DNA from: Verrucomicrobiia bacterium
GTDB lineage: Bacteria > Verrucomicrobiota > Verrucomicrobiia > Palsa-1439
DNA length: 64,000 bases
Assembly: GCA_022072455.1 (NCBI GenBank)
Contig: JAJVHY010000020.1
Span: forward strand, 310,001-374,000
Direction: 5' to 3'
The position numbers and the translations under genes were made by a program. Shown here one piece after another: positions 42,248 to 64,000 of the stretch; position 1 is the stretch's first letter; each line of letters begins with the position of its first letter. The notes below the pieces were generated by a model, which worked only from the letters and a program-made list of their open reading frames with translations, was not told the DNA's origin and did not search any database.

Positions 42248-42324
42248 TGTCATTCTGAGCGCAGCGAAGAATCTCTGTCGTTCCTTCATTCAGCAAGAGA
42301 CCCATCGCTGCGCTCAGGGTGACA
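42248..42324. repeat. Two-armed palindromic dispersed repeat (CTGAGCGCAGCGA type)
   Basis: Arms at 42248-42276 and 42296-42324 (29 bp each) are complementary with a few mismatches and share the core CTGAGCGCAGCGA; the loop is 19 nt. The core relates it to the half-element at 14931-14957. It sits between yraN and the broken front of the hybrid kinase, so it may mark the rearrangement point. Confidence 0.75.
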
Positions 42325-57586: not shown

Positions 57587-58289
57587 CCGCCGGGAAACTG
57601 ACCGTCACCCGGCCGGCTTTCCGTTCCAGCAGTTTGTCGAAGATAAACATCCGCAGACTCTCCCAAAGCGTGACCGGCGGACTGACCGGTTGAACTTTCC
57701 CCTGCCGGATCGCCTTGAAAATCGCCGGCACCGTCGGCACCGCATCCACGAGCGTGTAATGCCGCCCGAACATCCACAACCCATGCGTGTCCGAATTCGC
57801 GATCACCGGTTTCCCATGCTCGGACGCCACCTGCCGTGCCCGGTTATTAAACGCATCAAACCACCGGTAATGCATCCCCGCCACCTCGATGGCATCGAAC
57901 AGATCAATGTTCCGCTCCAACTCCCGGCCGAGACAATGGCTGGCCGGATAAAACGGATGCGGCGCGACCACGAGCAAATCATCCCCCCGCTCCCGCCGGT
58001 ACGCCCGCAAATCCGCCAACGTCTTCAACCGCGCCGCATCGGCCGGCGGGATGTTGTAAATCAACACATCCCGGCCACCGAATCTCCACTCCACCGCTTG
58101 AATCAACAACAACCCGCGGTCGCGCGCATAATCGAACACCCGTTCGTCATCAAAGACTTTCATGTGCAGCGTGATCGCAATCGCCGCGTAGTGCAGCGCC
58201 ACCGCCTTATCAATCAACTGCACCGCCGTGTACGGCAACCCATCATACGGGTCGTCACCGGTATGCATGTGCAGATCAACTTTAATCAT
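57567..58289 (-). CDS. PHP-domain phosphoesterase-like protein
   Basis: This 240-residue protein starts MIKVDLHMHTGDDPYDG, the HxH metal motif of PHP phosphoesterases. Further metal residues are likely in AITLHMKVFDD, VVAPHPFYP, EVAGMHYRW and IANSDTHGLW. Substrate is unknown; PHP proteins include nucleotide and phosphosugar hydrolases and DNA-polymerase proofreading modules. ATG 58289 overlaps the AddA-like stop by 4 nt, so it is coupled to the repair genes. It could act in repair, but that is only context. Confidence 0.82.
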   Translation of the reverse strand: MIKVDLHMHTGDDPYDGLPYTAVQLIDKAVALHYAAIAITLHMKVFDDERVFDYARDRGLLLIQAVEWRFGGRDVLIYNIPPADAARLKTLADLRAYRRERGDDLLVVAPHPFYPASHCLGRELERNIDLFDAIEVAGMHYRWFDAFNNRARQVASEHGKPVIANSDTHGLWMFGRHYTLVDAVPTVPAIFKAIRQGKVQPVSPPVTLWESLRMFIFDKLLERKAGRVTVSFPAVSRAGR

Positions 58290-61200
58290 GTCAACACCCC
58301 GTACCGGTCCGTCCGCGTCCCGAAAATGCCCACTTCCTTGACCGGCCCCACCACCCGCCAACAATCCCGGTAACTCTCCAACTGTTGCCGGTACTTCTCC
58401 AATAACGCCGCGACTTCGGCTTTGTCCGTCTTGTAATCCACCAACACCCACCCGCCGTCTTCCTCGAACGCCAAATCAATCACCCCGCGCACCACTCCCG
58501 CCGGCAACGCCACCGTGAACGGCACCTCCGTCAACCGTTGCCGGGCTGTCGCCGCGCGCTGCCAGATCGCCGATTTCATCACCCGCTCCACTGTCGCGAC
58601 CGCCTCATCCGCCAGCGATTCCTCCAACTCCGCGCCCCGCAACGCCGACACCGCCAGACCTGTCAAATCGCGCCGTTCAAACGCCGCCTGCAACAGTAAA
58701 TGAATCACACTGCCCCATCGCGCGCCGTCGCCATCCATCCGCGCCAGCACCGGCTGCGCTACTGATTTGGCGGCGCGCGTCGCATACGTCGCCCCCTTCA
58801 CCAACTCCCACCGACCCTGCACCGCCGCCTGGGCCGCGACAACTTCCGCCACCGACACTGTTACCGGCTGACTCGTCAACGCCGACTGCGGGCCGGGATC
58901 GGGCAATTCCGGCGCCGACTCCACAAACGCCGCCAACGCGCGCCACGGATTCCGATTCGCGTATTTCGCCCGGCGACTGATGATCAAGTGCTGTTCCGCG
59001 CGTGTCGCCGCCACATACAACAGCCGGTTTTCCTCCGCCGCCAAAAATTGTTCTTCGCGCGCGGCCAACTCAGTCCAATTCAACGGCGCGGCCAACAACC
59101 GGGACGACCGATCCCCTGCGTAGAACGCCAGATAGCCGCGCACCCGCGTCGTCGAACGATCCACATGGATCCGCACCGGATGATCACTCGCACCTTCCGG
59201 CCCCGCCACGAACACGACCTTGCCTTGCAGCCCTTTGACCTTGTGCAGGTTCATCACCCGCACAGCGTTGCCGGTCGGTGGAGTCGCCGCCGCGCCATCG
59301 TGAGCCTCCTCCGCGTCAACCCACCGGCCCAACTGCGCCACCACTTCTGTCGCCGTGGGCAACTGCGCTTGCAGCGTCCGCAACAACTCCAAGGCTTTTG
59401 CCAGACTCCCGGCCGCCACGTTACCCTCCGGCTGCGCCGCCGCCAACGCCAGCAACCCCGTCGCCGTCGCCACCCGCTCCAAAGCCACACACGCCGGCAA
59501 CGTCCCCAACCACTCCGCATACCGGCGCAGCGAGGCGAACGCTTCGCCAAATATCCCGGCCGCTTCGCTGCGCCAATCGAATCGACCGCCCGACTGCCGG
59601 TGCTTGTACAATTCCCGGTCGCTGAACCCGAACGCCTCACTCCGCAACGCCGCCACCACCGCGACCGGATTGTCCGGCTCCAACGCCGCCACCGCCAACG
59701 TGTACAACAACGCCACCTCACGTACCTCATTGAGCACCGTGCCGCCGGTCACTTCGTGCGGTAGCCCGAGTTGCTGCAACGCCGCGGCATACCGGCTTAA
59801 TTGTTCCTTCTTCCGCGTGATGATCAGAAAATCACCCGGCGATCGCCCCGACGCGCGGATGTGCCGCGCAATCAATGCCGCTTCCTCGCCAATCACGTCC
59901 TGACCGTTACCGCCCTCAAAGCTGAGCCGTCCCACACCGGGCGCGTCCGCCAATTCCTTGCCCACTTTCAATGCCACATAGGCCGGGGATTCCGCGGTCG
60001 CCTTGGGCGGGAAAAACTCCAGCCGGTCAAACGTGGCGTTTACCCAGTTCACTACCGGCGCCGCGGAACGGAAATTTGCCGAGAGCGTCACCACGTCGCC
60101 GATGATTTTTTTCACCGCGTTGTACGTCACGATGTCGGCCCGGCGGAACCGGTAAATGGACTGTTTCGGATCACCCACCACGAACAACGATCCCGGCACC
60201 GGCCGGCATTTCCGCCAATCGCGCTCGGTCGGATCACTCGCCGTCAGCAACAACATCATCTCCGCCTGAATCGGGTCGGTATCCTGAAATTCATCCACCA
60301 AAATGTGGGTGAACCGGTTTCGGAAATACCGGCGCACGGCGGGATGGTCGCGCAACAATTGCGCGGCGCGCAGCAACAAATCCTGAAAGTTCAGCGCCCG
60401 CGCCGCGGCGCGTTGCTGGTCGTACACCGCGCGCGCCCGCTCCAGCAACGGCAGGATCACCGCATACCGGTGCGCCTGCCACGCCGCGACGAACGGCTCG
60501 GCCACGTCCGCACAAAACCTGTCCCACTTCTCGTGCTCGGCCTCCGCCTGAGCCTTTTTGCCGGGCCAAGATTTCTGCACACACGAGCGACCGGGTTGAA
60601 ACAGTTCGAGGATTTCCGCCACATCCGCCGCGCGCTCCAAGTCATGCGTCCGCAACATTCTCAGCACGCGCGGCCACAAGACGCAGAACGCATCCGTGCC
60701 GTCCGCCGCCGGTAAGTTTTTCGCCATGTGCGCCGCGTAGTCGCGTAACTGCTTCACTACCGCCGACAACCCCGGCAGTTTCACCGCTGCCGCCGGCCAC
60801 TCCGCCACGTCGGGATAATCAGCGAACGCCGCAAAGGCCTCCTTCAAATCTGCCGGCGTCAATCCGAGTTCATCCAATTTGTCCAAGACCGGATCGTCTT
60901 GTGCATACAACTGGTTCGTGAACGTCACCCATGCTTGCTCGCGCATTCGGCCATCACTCGCCTCGTCCAACTCGACAAAATCCGGGTCCACCCCCGCCTC
61001 GACCGGGCGCTCGCGCAGCAACCGTGCACAGAAGGAATGAATCGTCCCAATGACGCATTCCGCCGCGCCCGGCAATTCCTTGCGCAGCCGCTCCTGCAAC
61101 TCCGCCGCCGCCTTGCGCGTGAACGTCACCGCCACGAGTTGCTCGCGCTGACACTGGCCGGCGTTGATGAGCGCGGCGATGCGCGCGACCATTTGGGTCG

Positions 61201-61291
61201 TCTTGCCGGTGCCGGCGGCGGCTTCGACCAGCAATGAGCTGGATAACTCCTCGCGAATCCGGTCGCGCTCGTTTTGGTCAGGGGGTTTCAT
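58286..61291 (-). CDS. addA: AddA/UvrD-like helicase-nuclease
   Basis: This 1001-residue protein is an SF1A helicase fused to a PD-(D/E)XK nuclease. It has Walker A VEAAAGTGKTT (about 22-32), motif Ia TFTRKAAAELQ, Walker B LVDEFQDTDPIQ, motif III GDPKQSIYRFR, motif VI LYVAATRAEQHLI, and nuclease residues in RGVIDLAFEEDGGWVLVDYKTDK near the C-terminus. The layout matches AddA of the AddAB double-strand-break resection complex. It overlaps the AddB-like gene by 14 nt, consistent with a two-subunit complex. RecB-like naming is an alternative. Confidence 0.88.
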   Translation of the reverse strand: MKPPDQNERDRIREELSSSLLVEAAAGTGKTTQMVARIAALINAGQCQREQLVAVTFTRKAAAELQERLRKELPGAAECVIGTIHSFCARLLRERPVEAGVDPDFVELDEASDGRMREQAWVTFTNQLYAQDDPVLDKLDELGLTPADLKEAFAAFADYPDVAEWPAAAVKLPGLSAVVKQLRDYAAHMAKNLPAADGTDAFCVLWPRVLRMLRTHDLERAADVAEILELFQPGRSCVQKSWPGKKAQAEAEHEKWDRFCADVAEPFVAAWQAHRYAVILPLLERARAVYDQQRAAARALNFQDLLLRAAQLLRDHPAVRRYFRNRFTHILVDEFQDTDPIQAEMMLLLTASDPTERDWRKCRPVPGSLFVVGDPKQSIYRFRRADIVTYNAVKKIIGDVVTLSANFRSAAPVVNWVNATFDRLEFFPPKATAESPAYVALKVGKELADAPGVGRLSFEGGNGQDVIGEEAALIARHIRASGRSPGDFLIITRKKEQLSRYAAALQQLGLPHEVTGGTVLNEVREVALLYTLAVAALEPDNPVAVVAALRSEAFGFSDRELYKHRQSGGRFDWRSEAAGIFGEAFASLRRYAEWLGTLPACVALERVATATGLLALAAAQPEGNVAAGSLAKALELLRTLQAQLPTATEVVAQLGRWVDAEEAHDGAAATPPTGNAVRVMNLHKVKGLQGKVVFVAGPEGASDHPVRIHVDRSTTRVRGYLAFYAGDRSSRLLAAPLNWTELAAREEQFLAAEENRLLYVAATRAEQHLIISRRAKYANRNPWRALAAFVESAPELPDPGPQSALTSQPVTVSVAEVVAAQAAVQGRWELVKGATYATRAAKSVAQPVLARMDGDGARWGSVIHLLLQAAFERRDLTGLAVSALRGAELEESLADEAVATVERVMKSAIWQRAATARQRLTEVPFTVALPAGVVRGVIDLAFEEDGGWVLVDYKTDKAEVAALLEKYRQQLESYRDCWRVVGPVKEVGIFGTRTDRYGVLT

Positions 61292-64000
61292 GTTTCCGCT
61301 GGCTCTGTTCCGTGATCATCGCCACGTCCCGGCAAACACTCCGGTAATCGCAATAACCACAATCCTCCACCTTCAGCGTCGCGTGAAACTCGCCGCGCGC
61401 GATCAAGCCTCGCAACTGGGCCAGCAACACCGGCGCATCCGCCAAGTCTGTCGGCGTGAACACGAACTTCTCACCGCGCCCTTTCTCCGTCGGAAAGTAA
61501 TAGCCAAACGACAGTACCGGCTTCCCGTAGAACGCGCGCGCCAACTCGATGTAGATCGCGTGCTGCAACACCCGCCCGCCGTTGAACGGATCATCCCGCT
61601 TGACGCGATAGCGAGTGGGGTTGCCGGTTTTGTAATCCCACAACTCCAAACCAGCCGCCGTCTCGTCCACGCGATCAATTCGGCCCCGCACAAAAATCTC
61701 CCCGCCGTCCGCCAACCGCACCGCCTGCGCCGGGATGTCGGCCTCAAAATCGATCGGGCGCCCCGGCCACGGCTCGGTCTCAAAAATCCGCACCGCCCGG
61801 CGCAATCGCCGGCAATCCCGGCGCAACACCCCTTCGCTCGGCGGCGGAAACTTGCGCCGCCACAGCGCGATGTTCTCCTCCAACGCCGCCGCCAACGCGA
61901 CCCCGTCGCGCAGGTGCCGACAAAACACATCGTGCAACAACTGCCCAAACTCGACCGGCGGCAGCCACACGTCAGCATCCAGCTCCAATTCTTCCGGGGC
62001 TTCGAGGTGCAGTGCGTACCGGTAAAAATACCGGAGCGGACACGCGCCGATGGTCTCCAACCGGTGGGCCGAGAATGGCCGGTCGGGATGCCCGACCGGA
62101 TCCAATGCCGGCCCCGCTTCCGGCACGAACCCATCAAATTCCGTGAACTCATTGCCGGCGCGCTGCTCGGCGGCATGCGCGCCGCGCTGCAACCACGGAA
62201 AACACTCGCCCACCAGCTTGACCGGCGCGGCAGCCGGCGCCGCCATGCAAAACCGCCACATCCACCATTCCGTGTCCGAAAGTGCCTGACCAGCTTCGGC
62301 CGGCGCGGTGGCCGCTGTCGGCAGGTAGGGGCGACCCGCCGGGTCGCCCGCATTCGTTGCGCCTGACGGACGGGCCGACGGCTCGTCCCTACCAATCAAC
62401 TCCCACCCGGGCGCAGACTCACTGTCGTCCGTTAACGACCGCCAGGCAAAACTGGCCGTGACCGTTCCGCGCAACCGGGCGCGCAAGCGCGCGAAACTTT
62501 TTGCCGCGCGCGCGCGTTGGGCCGCCACCGTCGTCAACTCGCCGGAAAGTTTCTGGCGTTCGCTGTCCAGTAACACCGGGTCTTGCCGGCCTGCCGGCGG
62601 AAAACGATTTGCGTCCAATCCAACGATGAACGTGTGTGGTCGGCCGGAATGACCGCCGCTTTCCCAGCCGCTGACGTAAAGATGACCGGGCCGCGGCCCT
62701 TCGCCGCGGACGCGCGTTTCGTTCAGCAGGGCCGTCAACCACTCGCGCGCGTTCACCGCGTCACCGCCCGTCGGCAACCAGGTCGCCAATTCCGCGATGC
62801 GCCCCTGCAATACATCGCGGGCGTAATTGTCCAATTCGTTCACACAGCGAACCTGCGTTTTCAGGAATTCCGCGGCGGCTTCGAGTAACGGGCGCTCGGT
62901 CAGTTTCAGCAACCGGGCGACCGGCTCGCGCACCGCGACGAGCGCGTCGCGCCGGCGTTGCAAATTCGGTTTGTGTTCAGCGTCGGCCTCGGCCACTTGT
63001 TGCGCGAGGCCGGCAATCTGCGCATCGAGTTGGCTGAGATACCGGGCGCGCCCGAAACCGATGGGCACGGTGCGCAACGTCGCGCCTAGGTTGCCGGCCA
63101 CACCTTTGAGCAGGCCATCGCGAATCATCGCCACGAGGGCAGTCTGCGGAAAATCATCGCTCAGCCACGCCAACCACGCGGCCAGGGCCCGGCCCGGTCG
63201 GGAGTAGCGCACCGGGATGCCTTGGGCAAATGTGACCGGAATATCGAGCGCCGTGGCCACTTCATAAAACCGGGAAACATACGTCTCGGCGTCAGTGTGG
63301 AGGACTTCCACTTGATCGAGCGGCCAGCCGTTGGCGAGGCACCGGCGGAGAACTTCGCGGACTTCGTTGATTTCGCCCACGGCGCGGAAAGCGTCGGTGA
63401 ACTCCGGTCCGGGCGGTTCATCGACCGGCAAGGTCGGCAGACCGGCGAGCAACTCGCGTTCGCGGCCGGTCAGTTCCAAGTCCGCCGGCAGGAGCACGCG
63501 GGCTGGGAAGGGACGCCCAATGGCGCGTTGGAGAATGCCGGCTTCGTCGTCGCAGTGGAGTTCGTCGAGCGCCTGCCGGTACGCGGTGAGGAGGCGGACG
63601 AGTTCGCGGCGTTTGTCGGCAACTTCAAACTGCCCGCGGTCGAGGTCGGCCGGTTCGAGGCCGGCCCGGCGGAGATCGTGGAGCGTGCCGGCGAGCCGCT
63701 CGGCGAGCGCCCAGGTTGGTTGGAGGCCGCCGAGGTAATGGCTGTCGAGCTCGCGGAGGAGGCGGGCGGCCAGAACCGTTCGGCCGAGCGGAGTGAGCAG
63801 TTGCCGGCCGGCGGTGGCGAGGTCGGCGCCGGCCAGTTCGAGGGCCAAGGTGGCGACGGTGTGGAGCCGGACGTTGACGACGGGTTGACCGGCGCGGGCG
63901 AGGCTTTCGAGCCATTGTTGGCCGACGCGACGCGAGGGACAGAGCAGCCATTTTTCGGCGAGTGGTTCGCGCCGGCAGGCGGCGGCGAGAGCGGTCAAGA
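61278..64000 (-). CDS. addB: AddB-like PD-(D/E)XK nuclease subunit, 5' end outside window
   Basis: At least 906 residues are visible; the frame is open to the window end, so the true start lies beyond position 64000. The C-terminal nuclease has GRIDRVDETAAGLELWDYKTGNPT and QHAIYIELA. An Fe-S staple is likely from a cysteine in IGACPLRYFYRY and CGYCDYRSVC near the C-terminus, the AddB/Cas4 arrangement. The N-terminal part lacks a Walker A in the visible region, as expected for AddB. A palindromic repeat (62324-62393) is inserted in frame about 535 residues into the visible part. Confidence 0.82.
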   Translation of the reverse strand, partial: LTALAAACRREPLAEKWLLCPSRRVGQQWLESLARAGQPVVNVRLHTVATLALELAGADLATAGRQLLTPLGRTVLAARLLRELDSHYLGGLQPTWALAERLAGTLHDLRRAGLEPADLDRGQFEVADKRRELVRLLTAYRQALDELHCDDEAGILQRAIGRPFPARVLLPADLELTGRERELLAGLPTLPVDEPPGPEFTDAFRAVGEINEVREVLRRCLANGWPLDQVEVLHTDAETYVSRFYEVATALDIPVTFAQGIPVRYSRPGRALAAWLAWLSDDFPQTALVAMIRDGLLKGVAGNLGATLRTVPIGFGRARYLSQLDAQIAGLAQQVAEADAEHKPNLQRRRDALVAVREPVARLLKLTERPLLEAAAEFLKTQVRCVNELDNYARDVLQGRIAELATWLPTGGDAVNAREWLTALLNETRVRGEGPRPGHLYVSGWESGGHSGRPHTFIVGLDANRFPPAGRQDPVLLDSERQKLSGELTTVAAQRARAAKSFARLRARLRGTVTASFAWRSLTDDSESAPGWELIGRDEPSARPSGATNAGDPAGRPYLPTAATAPAEAGQALSDTEWWMWRFCMAAPAAAPVKLVGECFPWLQRGAHAAEQRAGNEFTEFDGFVPEAGPALDPVGHPDRPFSAHRLETIGACPLRYFYRYALHLEAPEELELDADVWLPPVEFGQLLHDVFCRHLRDGVALAAALEENIALWRRKFPPPSEGVLRRDCRRLRRAVRIFETEPWPGRPIDFEADIPAQAVRLADGGEIFVRGRIDRVDETAAGLELWDYKTGNPTRYRVKRDDPFNGGRVLQHAIYIELARAFYGKPVLSFGYYFPTEKGRGEKFVFTPTDLADAPVLLAQLRGLIARGEFHATLKVEDCGYCDYRSVCRDVAMITEQSQRKHETP
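62324..62393. repeat. Palindromic repeat inserted in frame in the AddB-like gene
   Basis: The 70-bp segment has outer arms GGTAGGGGCGA (62324-62334) and TCGTCCCTACC (62383-62393) pairing with one G-T, and inner hairpins such as CGACCCGCCGGGTCG. It encodes about 23 low-complexity residues (GRDEPSARPSG ... GDPAGRPYL) with no frame change. This matches a class of dispersed repeats whose translations recur inside unrelated proteins. Confidence 0.75.

Follow-up and report, generated by a model that had tools for sequence, protein, structure and literature searches.

A GTAG-tagged REPIN lies in frame within an AddB-like nuclease gene of a verrucomicrobial genome

The locus and the host gene

The window (the whole analysed stretch of DNA, 64,000 nucleotides) ends with two overlapping genes on the minus strand. 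The first encodes an AddA/RecB-like UvrD helicase (58286..61291), the second an AddB-like exonuclease with a PD-(D/E)XK nuclease domain and Fe-S cysteines (61278..63998); the overlap is 14 nt. The open reading frame of the exonuclease is cut by the window edge. The part inside the window encodes 906 amino acids, the frame in the genome has 932 codons, and the true start codon is probably just beyond position 64000.

The nuclease domain occupies residues 642-890 (PDDEXK_1, E = 2e-32). In an alignment with five relatives, the catalytic residues D775, D788 and K790 and cysteines C653, C880, C883 and C889 are invariant. The protein thus has the C-terminal PD-(D/E)XK nuclease, the Fe-S cysteines and the adjacent AddA/RecB-type helicase that characterise AddB. 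Its score against the NCBIfam AddB equivalog TIGR02773 is far under the cut-off (27.9 bits vs 903.7), and therefore we call it AddB-like. Scanning the genome contigs with the AddB protein yielded zero relatives. A sequence search of PDB found no AddB relative, so the loop described below is not placeable on a solved structure by sequence.

The minus-strand frame (61278-63998) crosses a palindromic repeat and is read through it as ...WELIGRDEPSARPSGATNAGDPAGRPYLPT... The insert corresponds to about residues 535-559, approximately 80 residues ahead of the nuclease domain. The closest orthologue, that of genome G002, is 66% identical over its length and has PGVVL-PAAKTAAT where the window protein has PGWELIGRDEPSARPSGATNAGDPAGRPYLPTAAT, leaving a gap of 22 residues. 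The orthologue from G005 has an 18-residue gap at the same site and four residues of its own nearby, and the element is absent from it. Thus an in-frame insertion into an AddB-like protein, as proposed by the original prediction, is borne out by the intact frame and by the gaps in both orthologues. The net difference from G002 is 22 codons, or 66 nt, the identity of 66% being too low to fix the exact inserted length.

The region around the insert varies in length and sequence in these orthologues. This makes a tolerant loop likely, in agreement with the earlier suggestion. In the comparison with G002, dN/dS is 0.23/0.85 upstream of the insert and 0.27/1.11 downstream. The values are alike on both flanks, and hence there is no sign of decay of the gene. 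Most of this divergence probably arose before the insertion. The insert adds about 24 residues and is probably harmless to the nuclease.

Structure of the repeat

The repeat occupies positions 62324-62393 (GGTAGGGGCGACCCGCCGGGTCGCCCG-CATTCGTTGCGCCTGA-CGGACGGGCCGACGGCTCGTCCCTACC), where a two-armed repeat of 70 bp had been predicted. It is an inverted repeat of 70 nt whose arms, 62324-62350 and 62367-62393, are 27 nt each and 78% complementary. Analysis of the inverted repeat, of its copies in the genome and of its folding identifies the segment (62324..62393, unstranded) as a REPIN, that is, a head-head dimer of GTAG-tagged REPs, a known type of bacterial mobile palindrome.

REP 1 (62325..62349, plus strand) consists of the GTAG tag (62325-62328) and the hairpin GGGCGACCC-GCC-GGGTCGCCC with a stem of 9 bp and a loop of 3 nt. 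REP 2 (62368..62392, minus strand) consists of GTAG (62392-62389) and the hairpin GGACGAGCCGTCGGCCCGTCC, whose stem is imperfect. The unpaired GTAG directly 5' of a short-loop hairpin is the signature of the GTAG-REP superfamily. The spacer of 16 nt between the REPs (62351..62366, unstranded) differs from copy to copy. Both tags are outermost, the REPs are inverted and the spacer is variable, as in REPINs.

A TT dinucleotide abuts the GTAG of REP 2 on its outer side (62394..62395, minus strand). Roughly every second dimer site in the genome has such a TT next to a GTAG, and has it on a single side; no target-site duplication was seen at the dimer sites. Counting the TT, the added unit would be 72 nt, or 24 codons. 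The coding strand folds better than all of 200 shuffled sequences both as RNA (z = -5.1) and as DNA (z = -3.4). The opposite strand folded as DNA gives z of only -1.8, and 12 of the 200 shuffles were as good.

Copies in this genome and in relatives

A genome search for the same arms, which had been suggested as a check, found about ten further full dimers, mostly of exactly 70 nt, as well as single REPs. Full-length 70-nt matches have E-values down to 1e-16 and include intergenic sites. The repeat is therefore interspersed in multiple copies, as is usual for the GTAG-REP superfamily, although their number is modest compared with the classical families. Since the copies are dispersed and an orthologue lacks the element, we infer that the doublet is mobile as a unit.

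The other copies are 79-90% identical to that of the window; the nearest has 90% and most have 79-87%. Two pairs of copies reach 96%. One of them is within a tandem array, and the other is formed by copies on contigs C25 and C16, whose flanking frames look alike. These, the only pairs at 96%, look like local or segmental duplications. This pattern argues against recent activity. The array (G000:C17:56106-56463), a 144-bp tandem array, contains three REPIN copies, all of them in frame in a 369-aa open reading frame with no Pfam match. One more copy, without a long frame, is situated 2.9 kb from the AddB-like insert, just past the window (G000:C3:375221-375291).

The dimer was also found in the sister genomes G002, G006 and G008. 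Among the 188 genomes of the class that were searched, only one further genome had any match. The exact REP is present in Chloroflexi, Verrucomicrobia, Acidobacteria, Methylomirabilota and other phyla.

Other intragenic copies

The mutL gene of the same genome (G000:C4:90097-90169) contains an in-frame dimer of 73 nt. It is situated in the linker between the N-terminal and the dimerisation domains, where relatives have other, variable linkers. The uracil-DNA glycosylase genes of two Verrucomicrobia species (L094:6419-7354 and L097:4961-5848) carry a common insert in their N-terminal region, ahead of the catalytic domain. The full dimer of 76 nt is present in one of these genes; in the other, an in-frame loss has removed much of one arm. 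The surviving arm is identical over 26 nt in both species, although 16% of sites differ between the genes. Outside the insert dN is 0.07 and dS is 0.65, so that dN/dS is about 0.11. The insert is inherited between the species in a gene under purifying selection, and the substitution rates are compatible with persistence of a REPIN in a constrained gene. In Chloroflexi (L074, L115), copies occupy the inter-domain linker that joins both halves of an ABC transporter ATPase.

The dimers within open reading frames have lengths of 70, 73 and 76 nt, all equal to 1 modulo 3, and those outside have lengths of 66-72 nt, the numbers being small. This fits a transposed unit comprising the dimer and two additional bases. 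Among the Pfam-supported hosts, the choice between the GRDEP-type and the VGTSRR-type frame leans one way, at about 7 to 2 as counted by eye, in a sample too small to establish a preference. Repair genes (AddB, MutL and uracil-DNA glycosylase) account for three of the roughly eight host families with Pfam support, in a sample that was not drawn without bias. Most copies in the genome of the window are outside well-supported genes, and thus no coding specialisation is seen.

Transposases

There are five matches to Y1 transposases in the genome of the window. The only REP-flanked one (L013) carries a different REP. Several Y1 transposase genes in this genome and its relatives have GTAG hairpins on both sides, as expected of RAYTs (REP-associated tyrosine transposases), each with its own REP. 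None of the Y1 transposases detected in this genome and in G002, G006 and G008 has the REP of the window in its flanks, and so no cognate transposase flanked by the same REP was found in the same genome. A Y1-transposase-like stretch at G000:C12:97606-98013 has no GTAG hairpins or REPs nearby; it shares a 639-aa open frame with an aminotransferase-like sequence (KBL/BioF-type by eye).

The REP of the window, GGTAGGGGCGACCCGSCGGGTCGCCC, brackets RAYT genes with the HUH motif at three Chloroflexi loci (L073, L150, L153). The L073 protein matches NCBIfam REP_Tyr_transpos with E = 7.5e-17, which is under the curated cut-off. This makes mobilisation by such a RAYT the likely mechanism. The absence of such a RAYT here suggests either a relic or an assembly gap: the assembly is 95.6% complete, and REPtrons can be absent through deletion (PMC3733652). 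For these reasons, the missing RAYT weakens the case for an active REPIN more than the case for a REPIN. The original prediction of an active repeat family in this lineage is not supported, as no other copy exceeds 90% identity to that of the window and no cognate transposase was found.

Interpretation

The most plausible explanation, in which we have considerable confidence, is that a REPIN moved by a RAYT inserted in frame into a loop of the AddB-like protein and the function of the enzyme was kept. The two inverted GTAG-tagged REP hairpins would form one miniature, non-autonomous mobile unit, and the mover would be a RAYT of the HUH/Y1 type, presumably also for the window copy. This copy would have entered the loop that connects the nuclease domain with the helicase-like part of the protein. 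The gain would preserve the frame, with probably about 72 nt being added, that is, the 70-nt dimer and two bases. Translation of the element would then yield a polar linker rich in Gly, Pro and Arg, IGRDEPSARPSGATNAGDPAGRPYL, in a protein that is presumably produced and has presumably stayed functional. The transposase may since have been lost from the lineage or may be encoded in the small part of the genome that the assembly lacks.

One could suppose that the segment is a native hairpin-rich linker that resembles a repeat by chance, given the high GC content of the gene and the varying loop length among the orthologues. However, the same 70-nt sequence occurs at unrelated sites, including intergenic ones, and the segment is not conserved in the orthologues, which lack it; the closest, in the alignment of homologues advised earlier, is without about 22 residues there. 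These two observations refute the native linker, and we assign it practically no probability. Neither of the outcomes that the original prediction named as refuting it has thus occurred. A different possibility is that the insertion inactivated the enzyme, or is inactivating it, and that the reading frame belongs to a decaying pseudogene that is still in frame. Open frames may indeed persist by chance in GC-rich DNA. However, this frame is uninterrupted over more than 900 codons, it retains the catalytic and Fe-S residues, dN/dS differs little between the two flanks of the insert, and the analogous insert in the glycosylase outlasted a dS of about 0.65. Decay of the gene is thus improbable.

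The original prediction likened the repeat to the palindromic elements of Rickettsia (RPE), and it might be a relative of these, which would make it part of a family that specialises in entering coding sequences. Both are in-frame palindromic inserts in functional genes, and an insert encoding 20-30 residues, as here, is published for RPE. However, the arms are GTAG-tagged and the same REP brackets a RAYT elsewhere, whereas RPE-4 and RPE-6 are classed as CGTC repeats, a different repeat class with no dedicated transposase (PMC3733652); no CGTC tag is present here. Besides, most copies in this genome are outside well-supported genes. The likeness is one of behaviour, and actual kinship is very improbable.

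Several known systems are close to the element described here. Di Nocera et al. (2013; PMC3733652) described 24 families of GTAG-tagged REPs, their head-head dimers, and intragenic REPs encoding 20-30 residues. Repair genes, including those of recBCD and UvrD type, were prominent among the hosts of intragenic REPs, and Opitutus terrae (Verrucomicrobia) was the genome richest in intragenic GTAG repeats. The insert described here shares the GTAG hairpins, the head-head arrangement, the in-frame position, the length of 20-30 residues, the repair-gene host and the verrucomicrobial origin; the differences are that the host is another verrucomicrobial genome and that a cognate RAYT was not found in it. 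REPINs, as defined by Bertels and Rainey (2011; PMC3116915), likewise consist of two inverted REPs that fold together with their spacer into one hairpin and are repeated as a unit, and in one group of Pseudomonas fluorescens SBW25 the spacing has a peak at 71 bp. However, those REPINs are numerous, lie outside genes and coexist with RAYTs in the same genome, whereas the genome of the window has about ten, some of them intragenic, and no cognate RAYT. Recognition of REPs by RAYTs was studied in PMC8266576. In REPtrons (TnpA-REP) GTAG REPs bracket the RAYT, as observed for the REP of the window at the three Chloroflexi loci, whereas no REPtron with this REP was found in the genome of the window.

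The finding is thus a well-documented fresh example of a phenomenon described in 2013, and not a new kind of element. It provides a clean instance of a repair nuclease in which a REPIN is read as protein, together with orthologues that lack the insert. The RAYTs bracketed by the same REP are located in another phylum. The inherited REPIN of the glycosylase shows that a gene under constraint can retain such an intragenic insert. That repair genes recur as hosts had been remarked upon in 2013 and can now be tested by a controlled survey. A bolder scheme would have one REP and its RAYT spreading between phyla, with the REPINs of Verrucomicrobiota preferring linkers in repair genes (AddB, MutL, uracil-DNA glycosylase) and tuning of repair favouring their persistence or mobility; we regard it as speculative and unlikely.

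A second family of palindromic repeats is represented in the window at 42248-42324 (TGTCATTCTGAGCGCAGCGAAGAATCTCT ... AGAGACCCATCGCTGCGCTCAGGGTGACA). Its arms are 29 nt long and 83% complementary, and more full and partial matches are present elsewhere in the genome.
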